A stretch of DNA of 64,000 bases from Phycisphaerales bacterium (lineage in GTDB: Bacteria > Planctomycetota > Phycisphaerae > Phycisphaerales > UBA1924), in the NCBI GenBank assembly GCA_040221175.1, contig JAVJVK010000007.1, positions 124,001 to 188,000 on the forward strand, given 5' to 3'. Below the pieces are notes generated by a model. That model had not been told where the DNA came from and searched no databases. It saw only the letters and a list, made by a program, of their open reading frames with translations. Positions 15,257 to 24,259 of the stretch are shown here, in pieces. The stretch's first letter is position 1, and each line of letters opens with the position of its first letter. Position numbers and translations under genes: made by a program.

Positions 15257-15480
15257 GTTGGATTGACCAGGGTCGCGTGGAATCCCGACACCCCCTGAAT
15301 TCCCGGTATCTCCCCCGCTATCTGGCGCACGGACGAGCTCGACCTGCGACGACGGCCCGATTTCTTCAATTTCACAGCGAGTTCACGGCGGGTTCAATGC
15401 CGGGCGTGATTGTTCGAGTGTGGGCCGGGTGGCCGGTCCACACGAAATTGATTCATCGAACACGGAAGGAGCTCTCCACC

Positions 15481-16782
15481 ATGTTCAACAAGAAGCTGAA
15501 CAACAGGACCAACACCGGCGAACGATTGACCCGCGGCCTTGTTCCCGCCCTCGTCGCCGCGGCTGGCCTGGCCATCGCCGCACCGGCAACCGCCCAGGAC
15601 TGGGAGGAACACTACGAATGGGAGCCGGGCACGGGGTACCACGAGGAAGAGTGGTATGACCCGACCGACTGGTTTGACGACGACTTCTATAACACTGGCA
15701 TCGACTACGAAGAGACCGGCTACGACTGGTGGCGTGACGGCGACGAGGCATGGTCGCCCGGATACGACAACGACTACTACGCCGACTACGACGGTGACCG
15801 CTCGTATTGGGAGAACCGCGACGGCGAGCCCAACGCCAGGTACGACTACACGTGGTCTGGATGGGACGACGCAAGCGGCCAGCGCAGGTCGCAGACCACC
15901 GACTCGGACTTCTACACCGACGAGGACGACCCGGTCGACTACGACTACTGGGACAGCCGCCGCGATTACGACTACACCAGCCAGGCGAACCAACAGGACC
16001 GGCAGCGGATGATCCAGAATGCGGAGCTTCGCGGCCGGCTCGATGGCTGGCAGCGCAGGAACCTCCAGGGCCAGAAGGACGCGCACACGCTCGTCCGCAT
16101 CCGCATGGAAAACGGTCGCAGCGCGATCGTGAACCTTGGGCCCAACGTGGAGTTGTCCCGCCTGGACCTGCAGGACGGCGACCGCATCGCCGTGGCTGGC
16201 AAGCATGGCACGATCGATGGCAAGGACGTGTTGATGGCCCAGAAGGTGCGAACGGGCGACAAGATCGTTCGCATGAACAACTGGGAGCCGCAGCAGCAGA
16301 GCAATCGCGATCGCATGCAGCGCGAGTACGACCGCCAGCGCCGGATGCAGGCCGAGCGTCAGCGTCAGATGCAGTACGAGCGCCAGATGCGTGCCGAGCA
16401 CCAGCAGCGCATGCAGGATCAGCGGCGCAGCGGTTCGCAGGTTCGCGGCAAGCTGGAGAACTGGCAGCGCGTGGACCTGGAAGGCCAGAAGGACGCCCAT
16501 ACCCTGGTGCGTCTGCGCATGGACGACGGTCGCTCGGCGATCGTCAACTTCGGCCCCAACGTCGAACTCTCGCGGCTTGACCTCGAGCAAGGCGACCACG
16601 TCGCCGTGCGGGGCATGCCCGGCAGCATCAACGACAAGGACGTGCTGATGGCCCAGTACGTGCAGGTGATCGACAGCACGACCATCCGCATGGACAACTG
16701 GGACCCGACGGGCAAGGACGGCTCCGGCAGCACGCAGTCCAAGGCCAAGCAGAAGAGCGGGCAGAGCGAGCAGTCCGAGTAA
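15481..16782 (+). CDS. Secreted protein with two copies of a small beta-rich domain
   Basis: A 433-residue protein with a signal peptide ending in APATAQ (near residue 38). Residues 39-170 are extremely rich in Asp, Glu, Tyr and Trp (EWYDPTDWFDDDFYN and similar). Two homologous segments of about 75 residues follow, near 182-265 and 325-410. Both read GRL-x-WQR...GQKDAHTLVR-x-RM and SAIVNLGPNVELSRLDL...DVLMAQ, and they are separated by a Gln/Arg/Met-rich coiled region (QREYDRQRRMQAERQRQ). The duplicated module resembles the small OB-like or PRC-like periplasmic domains. A strong ribosome-binding site (GGAAGGAG) and a terminator frame a single-gene unit. Ligand and role are unknown; the acidic aromatic region may bind cations or surfaces. 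Confidence 0.8.
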   Translation: MFNKKLNNRTNTGERLTRGLVPALVAAAGLAIAAPATAQDWEEHYEWEPGTGYHEEEWYDPTDWFDDDFYNTGIDYEETGYDWWRDGDEAWSPGYDNDYYADYDGDRSYWENRDGEPNARYDYTWSGWDDASGQRRSQTTDSDFYTDEDDPVDYDYWDSRRDYDYTSQANQQDRQRMIQNAELRGRLDGWQRRNLQGQKDAHTLVRIRMENGRSAIVNLGPNVELSRLDLQDGDRIAVAGKHGTIDGKDVLMAQKVRTGDKIVRMNNWEPQQQSNRDRMQREYDRQRRMQAERQRQMQYERQMRAEHQQRMQDQRRSGSQVRGKLENWQRVDLEGQKDAHTLVRLRMDDGRSAIVNFGPNVELSRLDLEQGDHVAVRGMPGSINDKDVLMAQYVQVIDSTTIRMDNWDPTGKDGSGSTQSKAKQKSGQSEQSE

Positions 16783-16871: not shown

Positions 16872-17522
16872 TTAGCGGCGGCGGCGCATCGCCAGGGCGC
16901 CCAGGCCCAGGACGGCCAGCGAGGCGGGCGCGGGGATGATGACGTCTTCGACGTAGTGGATCGCCGCGTCGTGCACGCCCTCGTCCTCGCCGTTGTTGAA
17001 GACGAGATAGGTGGTCAGCGCGCTGCCGATGCCCGCTTCGCTGCTCGAGAGATCGAGCGCCAGCAGATAGACGCCCGTCTCGGCGTCGTTCAGGTAGAAG
17101 TCGTAGTGCTCATCGAAGCCGGCCGGGCCGACGCCGATGCCAAAGCCCGGTGCGCTGCCGGCCAGGGGGCTGGTGGCGCTCAGCGGGCCGAACTCGAGGG
17201 TGAAGGTCTGCGTCGCGCTCTCGAAGCCCGCGCCGTTCCATCGCTGCACGGGGCTGGCGAAGTCGAAGACCAGGTCGCTATCGGGGAACTCGCCCGCCGC
17301 GGCGAACAGGCCGGGCTCGTCGGCGTAGATCCGCCCACCGAACTCGAACATCTCGGCGGCAAAGACGCGCTCGCCGGGTACGACGAACTCGCCGCCGGGG
17401 CCGTCCTCGACGATGCCCGTGACGATGCGGCCGTCGACGATCTTCAGGCCGATGTCGCCCTCATGAGCGAGCGTGGCGCTGGTCAATGTCAGGGCGGCGA
17501 TGCTGGTGATGGCTGCGCGCAT
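16872..17522 (-). CDS. PEP-CTERM sorting-domain secreted protein
   Basis: A 216-residue protein with a signal peptide (MRAAITSIAALTLTSATLA) and a C-terminal PEP-CTERM tail: PAPASLAVLGLGALAMRRRR, that is the Pro-x-Pro motif, a hydrophobic helix and an Arg cluster. PEP-CTERM tails are recognised by exosortase during export. The ectodomain (HEGDIGLKIVDGRIVTG, SPLAGSAPGFGIG, GVYLLALDL) is clearly homologous to that of the next gene upstream, which instead ends in a GC-type dockerin. It is the last gene of a three-gene minus-strand set (pseudopilin, dockerin protein, this gene). Function unknown. Confidence 0.88.
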   Translation of the reverse strand: MRAAITSIAALTLTSATLAHEGDIGLKIVDGRIVTGIVEDGPGGEFVVPGERVFAAEMFEFGGRIYADEPGLFAAAGEFPDSDLVFDFASPVQRWNGAGFESATQTFTLEFGPLSATSPLAGSAPGFGIGVGPAGFDEHYDFYLNDAETGVYLLALDLSSSEAGIGSALTTYLVFNNGEDEGVHDAAIHYVEDVIIPAPASLAVLGLGALAMRRRR

Positions 17523-17559
17523 GGCGGAACTCCTCTCAACTCTCTCGCGACCGGGCCCT

Positions 17560-18324
17560 TCAGCAGCCCGCGTCGAACTCGTTCTGGAAACTCAGGAAGT
17601 CAAAGATGGTCAGCTCGCCGTCGCCGTCGAAATCGGCGGCAAGGTCGCCCGCGTCGAACAGGTTCTGGAAGGCCAGGAAGTCGAAGATCGTCAGCGAGCC
17701 ATCGCCGTCCATATCGGCCCGGCACGGCGAGCCAATGAGCGTCGCCTCGACCCACGCCACGGCGTCGGCCAGATCGTCGGGGCTGGCGTTCTGGCCGAAC
17801 ACGAGATAGAAGGGGTCGCTGTCGGCGATGATCGCGGCGTCGTCCCACAGCACCATCTCCAGCAGGTAGACGCCATCGCTGGCGGGCGCAAGCAGTTCAT
17901 ACGCGAGGTGGTGGTGGAACTTGCCGGTGGTGCTTGCCTGGCCGAACACGAAGCCAGGCTGTGCACCAGCGAGGGGCGTCTCGATCGAGACCGGGCCCTT
18001 GCTGATCAGGATGCGCGAATCGGCGACGTCGGTGAAGGCGGCGCCATCCCACGCGAGCACGGGGCCGAGCACGTCGAAGCCCAGCGAGGCGCGCGGGGCG
18101 AACGCATCGACGGGCGAATCGAAGCCCGGGTCGTTGGTCCAGTTGGGAAGCTTGCCGAACGCCGTATCGAACACGCGGCGGCCGTAAACCGGCGTGCCGG
18201 CGTCGCTGTATCCGGTCTCGATGACGCCGCGCTCGCCGGTGATGACGATGTCGCCCTGGTGCGTCTGCGCCATTGCGGCGGCGCAGAGCGTCAGGAGCGT
18301 GATCGTTGAGGTCGTGATGCGCAT
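17560..18324 (-). CDS. GC-type dockerin domain-anchored secreted protein
   Basis: A 254-residue protein with a signal peptide ending in AAAMAQ. Its ectodomain (HQGDIVITGERGVIETG, TPLAGAQPGFVFG, GVYLLEMVLWDD) aligns along its length with the PEP-CTERM protein just downstream. The C-terminal 55 residues are a double EF-hand-like dockerin: CRADMDGDGSLTIFDFLAFQ, then ADFDGDGELTIFDFLSFQ, closing with FDAGC. In Phycisphaerae this tail is a known surface-anchoring type. The start has GGAAGGAGG upstream. It lies 26 nt after the pseudopilin gene and 37 nt before the PEP-CTERM gene, consistent with one operon. Confidence 0.9.
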   Translation of the reverse strand: MRITTSTITLLTLCAAAMAQTHQGDIVITGERGVIETGYSDAGTPVYGRRVFDTAFGKLPNWTNDPGFDSPVDAFAPRASLGFDVLGPVLAWDGAAFTDVADSRILISKGPVSIETPLAGAQPGFVFGQASTTGKFHHHLAYELLAPASDGVYLLEMVLWDDAAIIADSDPFYLVFGQNASPDDLADAVAWVEATLIGSPCRADMDGDGSLTIFDFLAFQNLFDAGDLAADFDGDGELTIFDFLSFQNEFDAGC

Positions 18325-18350: not shown

Positions 18351-19139
18351 TTACTGCGCGACGCGCGGGTCGAAGCGGTTCTTCTCGTAGCTCTCGTACA
18401 CCTTCTCGAACTTTTCGATGGCGGCGTGGCCGTCGAGGTAGCCGTAGGTGGCGCGGGCCGACCAATCGCCGGGGTTGCCACCGTGGGCGTTGACCTGGCT
18501 CTCGAGCGAAGCGCGCAGCGGGATGCGCCCGCCGGGCGCGGCGCCCCAGTCCTCGGCGTGCACGTGGTCGGTGCGCGCGAAGTCGGCGCTCGCGTCGGTC
18601 TCACCGAAGGTCATCATCAGCCATTGCACCGTGGCGTAGGGGCGCTCGACCAGGCGGTCGGCGTCGTAGGTCTGATCGGGCGAGGGCGCGACGCTGCGGG
18701 TGGTGTAATTGTTCAGGCCATAGCTGGTCCACCGAGCGAGCTCGCCCAAGCCACTGGTTTCTCCTGCGCGCACGCGGCGGAGCGCTTCGGCGAAGCTCAA
18801 CCCCTCGAACTGCCCGCCCTCCTCGACCGACCAGAACGGGCTGCGATCCACCGGCGAGCGGATGGCCAGGCCGTCTTCGGTGTAGTCGGCCAGCAGCACG
18901 GGCCAGGCGTTGGGCAGGTCGGCGATGCCGCCGTGGGCGAGCCCGGCGTCGACGTAGTGGCCCTTGTGGTCGTCGGCGTAGAGCCGCTGGGCGAGCCCGA
19001 GCGAGCGGACCTGGCTGAGACACACCGCGCCGCGGGCCGTCGCGCGGGCCTGGCCGAGCGCCGGCAGCAGGATGCCGATGAGCACCGCGATGATCGCGAT
19101 GACCACGAGCAACTCGATGAGGGTGAAGGCGTGCCGCAC
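18351..19139 (-). CDS. Type II secretion pseudopilin-like protein
   Basis: A 262-residue protein starting [20 protein letters not shown], a textbook prepilin N-terminus: a short leader, Phe at +1, Glu at +5 of the mature protein and a hydrophobic helix cleaved and methylated by prepilin peptidase. The remainder is a periplasmic domain with few cysteines, of the kind expanded in planctomycetes (DUF1559-like architecture, although the full DUF signature is not obvious). It heads the minus-strand set with the dockerin and PEP-CTERM proteins, which suggests a shared export or surface role. The start at 19139 fits the leader length. Confidence 0.85.
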
Positions 19140-20387: not shown

Positions 20388-20639
20388 CGTAACCGAGTTC
20401 CAGAATGATTCTGTGACTGCACAGAATGGTTCTGGCACGCCACGGAAGGATTCTGGAACGCTCCAGAAGCGTGCCGTGACGCCACGAGTTCGTTCTGCAA
20501 CGCCACGGACCGGCCCTGGAACGCTCCAGATTCGTTCCGCGACGCCGCGGCACGGTCCCACGCCGCTCCAGAAGCGTTCCGTGAAGCCCCGGATTGGGCC
20601 AGCACCGCTCCAAAATCGTCTTGTGGCGACTCGGCCTTC
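20388..20639. repeat. Array 3: twelve abutting 21-bp hairpin units
   Basis: Twelve units of exactly 21 bp (starts 20388, 20409, 20430 and so on to 20619). The consensus hairpin is TTCTGGAACGCTCCAGAA, a 7-bp stem with an ACGC loop; many units keep pairing by compensatory change (CTGGCACGCCACGG, CCGTGACGCCACG, CCGCGACGCCGCGG). It lies between dus and the first FG-GAP gene, ending 31 bp before that start codon. Confidence 0.9.
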
Positions 20640-20670
20640 GTGGTATGCTGGTGGCAGAAGGAGCCCCGCC

Positions 20671-22446
20671 ATGCCCAAGAGCCGAGTTGCCGTCCGCCCG
20701 TATGCCCTCTTCGCCGCCTGCGGGCTGGCCCTGACGGCCGCGAGTGCGGCGCTGGGTCAGGGCGATCCGTTGAGCGAGCCGTTTCCGGCAGTGCTGGAGT
20801 TGGCTGATCTTGATGGGGTGATCGGGTTTCGGATCGACGGCGAAGTTCGTGATGGCTTCACCGGCGTGAACGTCGCATCCGCAGGTGACGTCAATGGTGA
20901 CGGCATCGATGATATGCTCATTGGCTCCCAAGTCGCTCCCGGAGAGAGCTACGTTGTGTTCGGTCGCGATGCCATAGCTGGTCCCGGCTTTCCGTCCGTG
21001 CTCCAGCTTGGCGACTTAGACGGAGTCACTGGGTTCCGAATTGGCGGCGTGGAGCGCCAGAGCGCAGGTTACTCGGTGGCCTCAGCGGGCGATTTCAATG
21101 GCGATGGCATCGACGATCTCGTCATAGGCGCGCACGGCGCTAGCCCGGGTGGCCGCTATCGCGCTGGCACGAGCTACGTCGTGTTTGGAAGCGACAGCGG
21201 CTTCCCAGCCACGTTTCGACTCGCTGACCTGAATGGCACCAACGGTTTCCGGCTTGACGGTGACGAGGAAGAAACCCATAGCGGCTACCGGGTGGCCCGT
21301 GCGGGCGACATCAATGGCGACGGCATCGGCGATGTGATCATTGGGGCACGGCGGTCCTATCCCTTCGGCAACGATCTACCTGGTCTGGCTTACGTCGTTT
21401 TCGGTCGCGACCCCAGCTCGGCCTTTCCTGCCGTACTCCAACTGGGCGATCTTGATGGCGAAACGGGCTTTCGCCTCAATGGCACCGATGCGGGTGATTA
21501 CTTTGGCGTGAACATCGCGTCGACCGGCGACATGAACAACGATGGCGTTGACGACCTGATCATTGGGGCGACAGGAACCGACCCCGGTGGCCGCGAGAAT
21601 GCTGGCACTAGCTTTGTTGTTTTTGGCCGCGACACCGCTTCGACCGGTGGATTTCCCCCGGTGTTTGAAATGTCTTCGCTAGTCGGCTCAGAGGGATTCC
21701 GTATTGAAGGAGCGGCCGCGTTCGATACCAGCGGCAGACCAGTTGCTCATGCGGGGGACGTGAATGGTGACGGCATCGACGATGTTGTAGTGTCGGCGCG
21801 CGGAGCAGATCCCGGCGGGCGCAGGTCGGCTGGCTCAAGCTACGTCGTGTTCGGCCGCGATACAACCGACCCATTCCCCGCTGCCCTGCAGCTCGTTGAT
21901 CTTGATGGTGTCAGAGGCGTGCGTATCGAAGGTGTTGATTCTGGAGACTTTGCTGGCGAACCGGTCGCATCAGCCGGCGACGTCAACGGTGACGGCTTGG
22001 ACGACCTGATCATCGGGACAACCTACTACACCGCTACGTCCTACGTTGTCTACGGACGCGACACCAGCGGCGGCGGCTTCCCGGCTGTGATCCCTCTAGC
22101 TGACATCGATGGTGAAATTGGCTTCCGTCTGGATGGCATTGCCCGCGCCGTGGCCCCGGCGGGCGACATCAACAACGACGGTGTCGACGACTTCATGGTC
22201 GCTTCACCCTCCTCCGATCCCGGCGGTCGCGAAGACGCCGGCTCGACCTACATCATCTATGGTCGTAAACTGACCTTCTGCCCCCCCGACCTCGACGGCG
22301 ATGGCGAGCTCACCATCTTCGACTTCCTCACCTTCCAGAACCTCTTCGACCTCATGGACCCGCGCGCCGACTTCGACGGCGATGGCGACTTGACCATCTT
22401 CGACTTCCTCGCCTTCCAGAACGCCTTCGACGCCGGCTGCCCCTGA
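20671..22446 (+). CDS. FG-GAP repeat protein with GC-type dockerin
   Basis: A 591-residue secreted protein. The signal peptide (VRPYALFAACGLALTAASAA) is followed by about eight FG-GAP units of the integrin-like propeller type. Each has a calcium loop such as DVNGDGIDDMLIGS, DFNGDGIDDLVIGA or DINNDGVDDFMVAS, then a SYVVFGRD strand. The C-terminal 60 residues are a GC-type dockerin (CPPDLDGDGELTIFDFLTFQ, then ADFDGDGDLTIFDFLAFQ, FDAGCP). The start at 20671 has AGAAGGAG upstream. It is a tandem paralogue of the next gene. Probably a calcium-dependent surface adhesion or binding protein; the partner is unknown. Lower GC at wobble positions in the propeller part is noticeable compared with its paralogue. 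Confidence 0.9.
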   Translation: MPKSRVAVRPYALFAACGLALTAASAALGQGDPLSEPFPAVLELADLDGVIGFRIDGEVRDGFTGVNVASAGDVNGDGIDDMLIGSQVAPGESYVVFGRDAIAGPGFPSVLQLGDLDGVTGFRIGGVERQSAGYSVASAGDFNGDGIDDLVIGAHGASPGGRYRAGTSYVVFGSDSGFPATFRLADLNGTNGFRLDGDEEETHSGYRVARAGDINGDGIGDVIIGARRSYPFGNDLPGLAYVVFGRDPSSAFPAVLQLGDLDGETGFRLNGTDAGDYFGVNIASTGDMNNDGVDDLIIGATGTDPGGRENAGTSFVVFGRDTASTGGFPPVFEMSSLVGSEGFRIEGAAAFDTSGRPVAHAGDVNGDGIDDVVVSARGADPGGRRSAGSSYVVFGRDTTDPFPAALQLVDLDGVRGVRIEGVDSGDFAGEPVASAGDVNGDGLDDLIIGTTYYTATSYVVYGRDTSGGGFPAVIPLADIDGEIGFRLDGIARAVAPAGDINNDGVDDFMVASPSSDPGGREDAGSTYIIYGRKLTFCPPDLDGDGELTIFDFLTFQNLFDLMDPRADFDGDGDLTIFDFLAFQNAFDAGCP

Positions 22447-22534: not shown

Positions 22535-24259
22535 ATGAGAGAGAACCGCATGTCGACGTTGCTGGCCGTTGGCGGCCTGGCGACCACCGCGATGGCGCAG
22601 GGCCCGCTGAGCGAGCCGTTCCCCGCCACCATCAATCTGGCAGACCTCGACGGAGCGCTGGGCTTCGTCATGCACGGCGTTGCCGCGAGCGATCAGGCCG
22701 GGTACGCCGTGGGGAGGGCCGGCGACATCAACGGAGACGGACTCCCGGATATCGCGGTCGGCGCGTGGCTGGCCGACCCGAACGGCTCGCTCCAGGCCGG
22801 TGAGACCTACGTCGTGTTCGGGCGGCGTGACCCGAGCCCGCACTTTCCTGCCCGATTGGAACTTGCAAGCCTCGACGGGGCCATCGGCTTCCGCCTGCCA
22901 GGATTCATCGGAGGCGGCCGCAGCGGCTTTGCCGTGCGGTCGGCCGGCGACATCAACAACGACCGGATCGACGACCTGGCAATCGGCGCGCCCACGCTCG
23001 AGGCCAGCGGTCAGGTCTACGTGGTCTACGGGACCCGAGCAGGATTCGCAGCGCAGGTGCCGCTCGACTCGCTCAACGGCGCCAACGGCTTCCGGCTGGA
23101 CGGCGATGACGCGTCGGGCCGGCTGGGCGCCGCGATCGGCCGCAGCGGCGACGTCGACGGCGACGGGCTGGACGACCTGCTGGTCGGCGCGCCGGGCGAT
23201 CGGGACCGGGGCGAGGCGTTCGTGGTGTACGGGCGGCGCGAGGCGTTCCCTGCCGTCGTTGACCTGGACGACGTCCAGGGCACGCTGGCCAGTTCGATCG
23301 TCGGCGACGCGATCGCCAGCGACAACGTCGGCGCGGGCATGGCATCGATCGACTTCGACGGCGACGGACTGGACGACCTGGTCGTGGGCGCCCCCACCGC
23401 CGAGACGGGCTTCCGCAACGGCGGCGCGACGTACGTGCTCTATGGCAAGCTCGACCGCTTCCCCGCTCGCGAGAGCCTGTCGAGGATCCTGCCGCGGACG
23501 CGATTCCGCGGGGCCGAGACGGCCGACCGCGTGGGCACGGCCATCGACAACGCGGGCGACGTCAACAACGACGGCATCGACGACCTGATCATCGGCGCGC
23601 CGTTCTCTGCCGGGGTACAGGGCCGCGGGCGTGCGTACGTGGTGTTCGGCACGGCCGACGGGCTCGAACCGTTCGGCTGGAACGACCTGTTCGACGACAC
23701 CGGCGAATTCGGCTTCCGCATCGAGGGCGTTGACACCGGCGATGGTTGCGGTACGTCGGTGAGCGCCGCGGGCGACGTGAACGGCGACGGCGTCGACGAC
23801 CTGATCGTGGGCGCGCCCTCGATCGGCGATGTGGGCAAGGCGTATGTCGTATTCGGGCGCGAGGACGGTACATTCCCGCCCGTGCTGCGATTGCGGGAAC
23901 TGGATGGCCAGAACGGATTCAGGCTCCTGGGCATTGGCAACAACGATCAGACGGGCATCTCGGTCGCGGGGATTGGCGACATCAACGGCGACGGCGCGGA
24001 CGACATCGCGATCGGCTCGCCACTGACCGACCCCGACGGCCGCACGCGCGCGGGCATGGTGTCGATCGTGTACGGGCGTGCGTTGTTCCCCACCTGCCCG
24101 GCCGACCTGGACCGCGACGGCGAGGCGACGCTATTCGACTACCTGGCGTTCCTCACCGCGTTCGAGTCCGGCGACCTGATCGCCGACTTCACCGGCGACG
24201 GCACGCTGACGCTGGCGGACTTCCTGGCATTCCAGAACGCGTTCGACATGGGCTGCTGA
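22535..24259 (+). CDS. FG-GAP repeat protein with GC-type dockerin (paralogue)
   Basis: A 574-residue secreted protein whose N-terminus (signal ending AMAQ, then GPLSEPFPATINLADLDG) matches the upstream gene's mature start (GDPLSEPFPAVLELADLDG). Seven to eight FG-GAP units with calcium loops (DINGDGLPDIAVGA, DVDGDGLDDLLVGA, DVNNDGIDDLIIGA) form a beta-propeller. The dockerin tail is more divergent: CPADLDRDGEATLFDYLAFL, then ADFTGDGTLTLADFLAFQ, ending FDMGC. The start at 22535 is preceded by GAAGGAGAA. The gap to the upstream paralogue is 88 bp and a terminator follows, so the two may be co-transcribed. Confidence 0.9.
   Translation: MRENRMSTLLAVGGLATTAMAQGPLSEPFPATINLADLDGALGFVMHGVAASDQAGYAVGRAGDINGDGLPDIAVGAWLADPNGSLQAGETYVVFGRRDPSPHFPARLELASLDGAIGFRLPGFIGGGRSGFAVRSAGDINNDRIDDLAIGAPTLEASGQVYVVYGTRAGFAAQVPLDSLNGANGFRLDGDDASGRLGAAIGRSGDVDGDGLDDLLVGAPGDRDRGEAFVVYGRREAFPAVVDLDDVQGTLASSIVGDAIASDNVGAGMASIDFDGDGLDDLVVGAPTAETGFRNGGATYVLYGKLDRFPARESLSRILPRTRFRGAETADRVGTAIDNAGDVNNDGIDDLIIGAPFSAGVQGRGRAYVVFGTADGLEPFGWNDLFDDTGEFGFRIEGVDTGDGCGTSVSAAGDVNGDGVDDLIVGAPSIGDVGKAYVVFGREDGTFPPVLRLRELDGQNGFRLLGIGNNDQTGISVAGIGDINGDGADDIAIGSPLTDPDGRTRAGMVSIVYGRALFPTCPADLDRDGEATLFDYLAFLTAFESGDLIADFTGDGTLTLADFLAFQNAFDMGC

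Follow-up and report, generated by a model that had tools for sequence, protein, structure and literature searches.

Paralogous ectodomain proteins with PEP-CTERM-like and dockerin tails share a recurring prepilin-associated locus in Phycisphaerales

Sorting of secreted proteins by a PEP-CTERM tail and an exosortase was described in 2006 (PMC1569441), and part of that paper reports that such tails are more alike within a species. It is already known, from a section of PMC3237569 (2011), that homologous proteins may end in different, non-homologous sorting tails, namely GlyGly-CTERM, LPXTG, or PEP-CTERM. For freshwater planctomycetes, a portion of PMC6461901 (2019) sets out the cohesin-dockerin 'Planctosome' model, which requires cohesins. 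Searches of open-licence PubMed Central full text returned no paper for 'GC-type dockerin' by name and none for PEP-CTERM and dockerin together, also when combined with Planctomycetes. Here we describe a locus in a stretch of 64,000 nucleotides from Phycisphaerales bacterium (GCA_040221175.1, contig JAVJVK010000007.1, positions 124,001 to 188,000; hereafter the window), in which two neighbouring genes encode one kind of ectodomain with two kinds of C-terminal tail.

The locus consists of three genes on the minus strand. Going downstream, a prepilin-type gene (18351–19139) is followed by the gene of a GC-dockerin paralogue (17560–18324, 254 aa) and then by that of a PEP-CTERM-like paralogue (16872–17522, 216 aa), with gaps of 26 bases between the prepilin and dockerin genes and 37 bases between the dockerin and PEP genes. 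The prepilin-type gene, which is the conserved neighbour of the pair, passed TIGR02532 with 27.6 bits (cut-off 16.3). Both paralogues are open reading frames, assigned by homology in the PEP copy and by NF041540 in the dockerin copy, and both begin with an N-terminus that looks signal-like by eye. The ectodomain, delimited by its HMM profile span, covers 17734–18297 in the dockerin paralogue, where the dockerin tail follows, and 16935–17498 in the PEP-type paralogue, which ends in PAP, a hydrophobic stretch, and RRRR. A promoter scan at the locus found none, and terminator-like sites numbered 1 against 1.5 expected. Convergent to the pair, by eye, a plus-strand gene (15277–16782) encodes a Tyr/Asp-rich protein with two similar copies of a segment that surrounds GQKDAHTLVR.

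The earlier note had proposed that these neighbours share their ectodomain, and this was borne out. Full-length BLASTP of the dockerin against the PEP paralogue gave 33% identity and 48% positives (E 7e-18, 222 columns), the alignment extending from the N-terminus up to the start of the tails. The motifs named in the earlier note (HxGDI, TP/SP-LAG-APGF, GVYLL) are present with small differences: HEGDI, SPLAGSAPGF, and GVYLL in the dockerin copy correspond to HQGDI, TPLAGAQPGF, and GVYLL in the PEP copy. The two ectodomains reached a Smith-Waterman score of 165, compared with a mean of 34 (sd 5.6, maximum 61) over 500 shuffles. When 28 further proteins of this genome with dockerin tails were compared after removal of their tails, none scored above 52 with the PEP ectodomain or above 57 with the dockerin ectodomain, so that the similarity of the pair is well above that between unrelated secreted proteins. 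By these sequence comparisons, the minus-strand genes at 17560–18324 and 16872–17522 are confirmed as true paralogues. Together with the tail matches given below, the homology supports the proposed common ancestry of two ectodomains that bear different tails.

A scan of the ectodomain against Pfam and NCBIfam placed it in no family; 49 members searched at E ≤ 0.1 gave only single-member matches to unrelated models, and PDB sequences gave no match at E ≤ 1. An AlphaFold2 prediction of the dockerin paralogue (40 rows) suggests a mainly beta ectodomain with one helix at its end (residues 21–190, block pLDDT 93–98), while the dockerin tail was poorly predicted (pLDDT 51–61). The best PDB matches of this ectodomain model in Foldseek were the lectin domains of FimH and FmlH (E 7e-5). 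Although these were the top matches, their scores are at background level (model-normalised TM-score ≤0.34, best VIA Z 7.7, in the range of chance likeness), and we claim no homology to them. A possible likeness of the H-x-G-D-I start, and of an H-x-H further on, to Zur-regulated or metal-scavenging surface proteins gained no support from the family-model scan. As to its biochemical role, our guess is that the ectodomain could bind glycans, metals, or other proteins.

Read directly, the tail of the PEP-type paralogue (IIPAPASLAVLGLGALAMRRRR) contains the Pro-x-Pro motif, the hydrophobic stretch, and the basic end. Across the 30 PEP-type members of the family, both prolines are invariant and RRR is nearly so. 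Curated models were less generous. The window PEP protein scored 17.5 bits with PF07589, below the cut-off of 20.7, and was unmatched by TIGR02595 at E ≤ 1, as was its tail alone at E ≤ 0.05. At E ≤ 0.05, TIGR02595 matched 16 of the 30 PEP-type members, the window's own not being among the matches listed. A genome-wide PF07589 scan at E ≤ 1, a threshold at which 6 of 14 control genomes also gave matches (none over the cut-off), returned 22 matches, 14 of them marked over the cut-off; the window PEP tail was absent from the 22. The PEP-CTERM assignment made in the earlier note thus stands by eye in its tripartite form, but it was not recovered by either model at its threshold. The enzyme expected for such a route is present: the window's genome has three exosortase genes, all over the PF09721 cut-off, and an exosortase occurs in 61/61 genomes of the order (the window's included). 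A candidate second mixed pair in this genome (a PEP gene ending near C13:57495 and a dockerin gene near C13:58405) was set aside, since the two look unrelated by eye.

The dockerin tail (17563–17724) spans 54 residues from first to last Cys and comprises two EF-hand-like halves, which appear in the DNA as a tandem repeat (17566–17718, period 81, 83% matches). NF041540 (dockerin_GC) matched residues 201–254 of the 254 with 45.4 bits (cut-off 29), and PF00404 (dockerin type I) scored 19.1 bits, below its cut-off of 22.9. At E ≤ 0.05, dockerin_GC matched 26 of the 29 dockerin-type members of the family. In the window's genome (3.44 Mb), GC-dockerin tails that exceed the cut-off number at least 150, a floor that reflects scoring of at most 150 candidates out of 224 in one scan and 227 in another. 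Two of these tails belong to adjacent plus-strand FG-GAP-repeat proteins in the window (20419–22446 and 22541–24259; NF041540 41.4 and 47.8 bits), which are like neighbours with the same kind of tail; an imperfect 21-base tandem repeat (20401–20468, 3.2 copies, 74% matches) lies at the start of the first of these frames. The cohesin-like partner that the earlier note had suggested seeking was not found: PF00963, which could miss distant cohesins, gave no match in the window's genome and matched in only 4 of the 61 genomes of the order, one of which (G060) belongs to the 39 whose family loci were fetched. These results lend no support to a classical cohesin as the anchor of the dockerin copy.

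The ectodomain profile identified 65 members at 40 loci in 39 genomes, the window included. The PEP query had given matches in 47 of the 61 genomes of the order and none in 14. Census rows comprise 39 loci fetched from 38 genomes (G026 counted twice) and the window; eight genomes whose matches were mainly C-terminal were omitted (G014, G022, G027, G029, G033, G038, G053, and G057), of which G053 holds two profile matches outside the counts, and an antisense open reading frame (L084, 8081–8428) was dropped as spurious. Among 294 genomes drawn from the phylum, the ectodomain occurred in 12 at E ≤ 1e-10; 10 belong to the same order, including G310 with two members located far apart, and 2 to one other family. 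A scan of contigs from named genomes gave 26 loci, 16 assigned to Phycisphaerales, Phycisphaeraceae, or Phycisphaerae, 9 to other planctomycetes, and 1 to Betaproteobacteria, and the mixed PEP/dockerin pair was found in 11 of these 26, which stem in part from the same genomes as the 40-locus census. The betaproteobacterial assembly carries two PEP-tailed members (L128:2487–6642), which could reflect transfer or contamination. Lone PEP-tailed members at L108:5122–5931 and L115:720–1418 lie beside a prepilin-type gene with a C-terminus unlike that of the usual neighbour. At L126:1140–7527, the prepilin-dockerin-PEP unit occurs as two tandem copies whose C-termini are identical, either through a real duplication or as an assembly artefact.

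Comparison of the 40 loci disclosed a recurring arrangement of homologous genes, mixed tails, and a prepilin-type neighbour. In 37/40 loci, the neighbour profile places a prepilin gene directly upstream, on the strand of the family members, directly upstream meaning open-frame ends from −700 to +400 bases. In the remaining three, the prepilin gene lies between the two genes (L085) or is missing (L098 and L099). Family members within one locus are on the same strand throughout. With tail classes assigned by eye, PEP and dockerin tails occur together in 23 of the 24 multi-member loci, a count that is phylogenetically non-independent. Seventeen of the 23 mixed loci are ordered dockerin-first, five PEP-first, and one dockerin-dockerin-PEP. 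The sole multi-member exception is L094, where a dockerin+PEP composite lies beside a PEP-tailed member; in this composite (L094:8064–9362), a dockerin-like repeat and then a PEP-CTERM tail are found in a single protein. The other 16 loci have single members, with a PEP tail in 6, a dockerin tail in 5, and an unrelated tail in 5, a few of them on short contigs. The two-tail state is therefore common and not universal, given these 16 of 40 loci and the 14 of 61 genomes with no match.

A tree of the 65 ectodomains, from which the tails were excluded, requires 10 changes of tail label overall and 8 for PEP versus dockerin alone; at least 3–4 changes are demanded by supported branches. A single clade of all PEP members was rejected by the AU test (p 5.7e-5), which was run on a quick tree with the PEP group named after the tree had been seen. 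At the same time, the labels cluster far above shuffled ones, with 9 changes for PEP and 8 for dockerin versus about 22. Tails do not follow the ectodomain tree and have changed repeatedly along its lineages. In one case a tail has clearly been transplanted in nature: at L066, a locus of the same genus as the window, the middle gene is a mosaic, a third copy with a PEP-type ectodomain and a dockerin tail. Its ectodomain blocks are 82–100% identical in nucleotides to the PEP neighbour, the switch falls at VEDTLLG, and its tail blocks are 87–100% identical to the dockerin neighbour. Local tail change is also seen at L095 and L094.

Among the genomes tested, tails go with the genome and not with the ectodomain, and each genome-wide dialect comprises about 70 to 150 or more copies. 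Searched at E ≤ 1e-8, the tail of L071 matched 120 times in its own genome, some of these matches being partial, and not at all in six other genera. The window tail gave at least 124 matches in G002 of the same genus and, among the matches listed, none in G018 and G043; in five other genera it had from at least 3 to 50 weaker matches, 44–61% identical among those listed. Within the window's genome, 37 distinct tails had a median amino acid identity of 83%, in a sample that leans towards likeness, having been drawn from the 30 loci most like the window's tail (pattern recovered in 29, L010 missed). The tail of the counterpart at L093, in another genus, is 37% identical. In G043, G047, and G039, which belong to another family of the order, the same ectodomain and prepilin occur with a region of about 100 residues that is not a dockerin. 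This region has 72 matches in G039, 71 in G047, and 68 in G043, at whatever position in the proteins, and none in the window's genome. At L069:8487–8786, the protein tested for this region had no NCBIfam match, and the region is possibly an undescribed sorting tail.

On balance, we favour the reading that the three-gene unit places one kind of domain at two surface addresses, with somewhat better than even confidence. The unit comprises a prepilin-like protein and, downstream of it, two secreted paralogues whose ectodomains belong to a single undescribed family, mainly beta in its predicted fold. The PEP-type copy would be processed by an exosortase, while the dockerin copy, bearing the tail that its genome uses in mass, would be held or exported by some partner. 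The tails would act as sorting signals for addresses that differ, and the prepilin-like protein may aid export or display of the pair. Selection would maintain the two-tail state, and presence of the domain at two locations would benefit the organism.

The strongest rivals of this reading are old divergence with interchangeable tails and a dockerin tail that serves secretion or folding. A more recent origin of the window's pair, through gene conversion or shuffling of tails, we consider very improbable. In its favour, a tail transplant is seen at L066, the sampled tails of the genome are alike, and identical codons at shared residues are found among the 37 tails at 0.694, above all 50 shuffles (0.678 after shuffling, maximum 0.684). 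This excess is real but tiny, so no strong recent conversion is visible, and conversion was rejected as the cause of tail uniformity; the small size of the excess speaks more for selection towards a shared reader than for continuing conversion. In addition, both members recur in the six other genomes of the genus, each with the tail that it has in the window, and the window pair is for this reason old. The earlier description of the tails as swapped consequently suits the family but not the window pair, and the earlier suggestion of a dockerin tail joined by recombination has an instance at L066, in a relative of the same genus. One of the two stronger rivals is an ordinary old duplication with tail drift. 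Under it, the two secreted paralogues have diverged in function, either tail could replace the other in bringing a protein to one and the same surface, and the mixed state was inherited from an early mixed pair, with neutral replacement of tails. At an identity of only 33%, the ectodomains may have diverged in function; tail labels cluster strongly on the tree, single-member loci occur (16/40), and in other families, as part of PMC3237569 relates, homologues are known to bear alternative sorting tails. Yet 23 of the 24 multi-member loci are mixed, and both tails are still seen where the tail changed on a young ectodomain lineage, at L066 (node 98/92) and at L095 with L097 (node 100/92). We regard this explanation as unlikely, though by no means negligible.

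The other strong rival takes the dockerin-like tail as a calcium-binding module for folding or secretion and not as an anchor, so that the PEP copy would be held and the dockerin copy released. It overlaps with the reading of two surface addresses, as both assume two destinations, one of them here outside the cell. In its favour are a genome with at least 150 dockerin tails and no cohesin, in an order where 57 of the 61 genomes searched likewise gave none, the constant prepilin-like neighbour, and the L094 protein, in which a dockerin-like repeat precedes a PEP-CTERM tail. Against it, PF00963 may overlook distant cohesins, and the genome-specific dialects suggest recognition by a partner. We hold it to be a credible alternative, though less likely than not.

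Extending the two-address reading, we tentatively propose, with less confidence than in the reading itself, that the locus could be a 'dual-address' operon kept by bacteria of the order. Besides the prepilin-like protein, it would encode one undescribed beta domain that is sent out along two routes, the exosortase and a further mass-sorting system that works without cohesin. The C-terminal tag of this further system would change dialect genome-wide while the cargo stays constant, and in one family it would have changed to the non-dockerin region. If this is true, the dockerin-like tags are the half that can be seen of a sorting system not yet described, whose receptor would be specific to the lineage. 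Paralogues that share an ectodomain and differ in their tail within one locus constitute a natural controlled experiment, which makes testable the role of the dockerin tail, the destinations of PEP-CTERM and dockerin proteins, and the reader of the lineage dialects. The constant prepilin-like neighbour is a first lead to the machinery of export or display.

Compared with the known systems, the locus resembles PEP-CTERM/exosortase sorting, as presented in part of PMC1569441, in its tripartite C-terminal tail and in the exosortases of the genome; it differs in that the window tail falls below curated cut-offs and is one of two tails on tandem paralogues. The dockerin tail agrees with the GC type of NF041540, passing the cut-off at a C-terminal position and with many copies per genome, but the lineages of the window's order use private dialects of it. 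With the 'Planctosome', as outlined in a portion of PMC6461901, the locus has in common planctomycete dockerin proteins outside cellulose degradation; that model needs cohesins, whereas PF00963 detects none here. Finally, in the families treated in a section of PMC3237569, alternative tails are found in different genomes, whereas at this locus one of the two tails is a dockerin-like domain, and both stand side by side in a single locus that recurs over the order.
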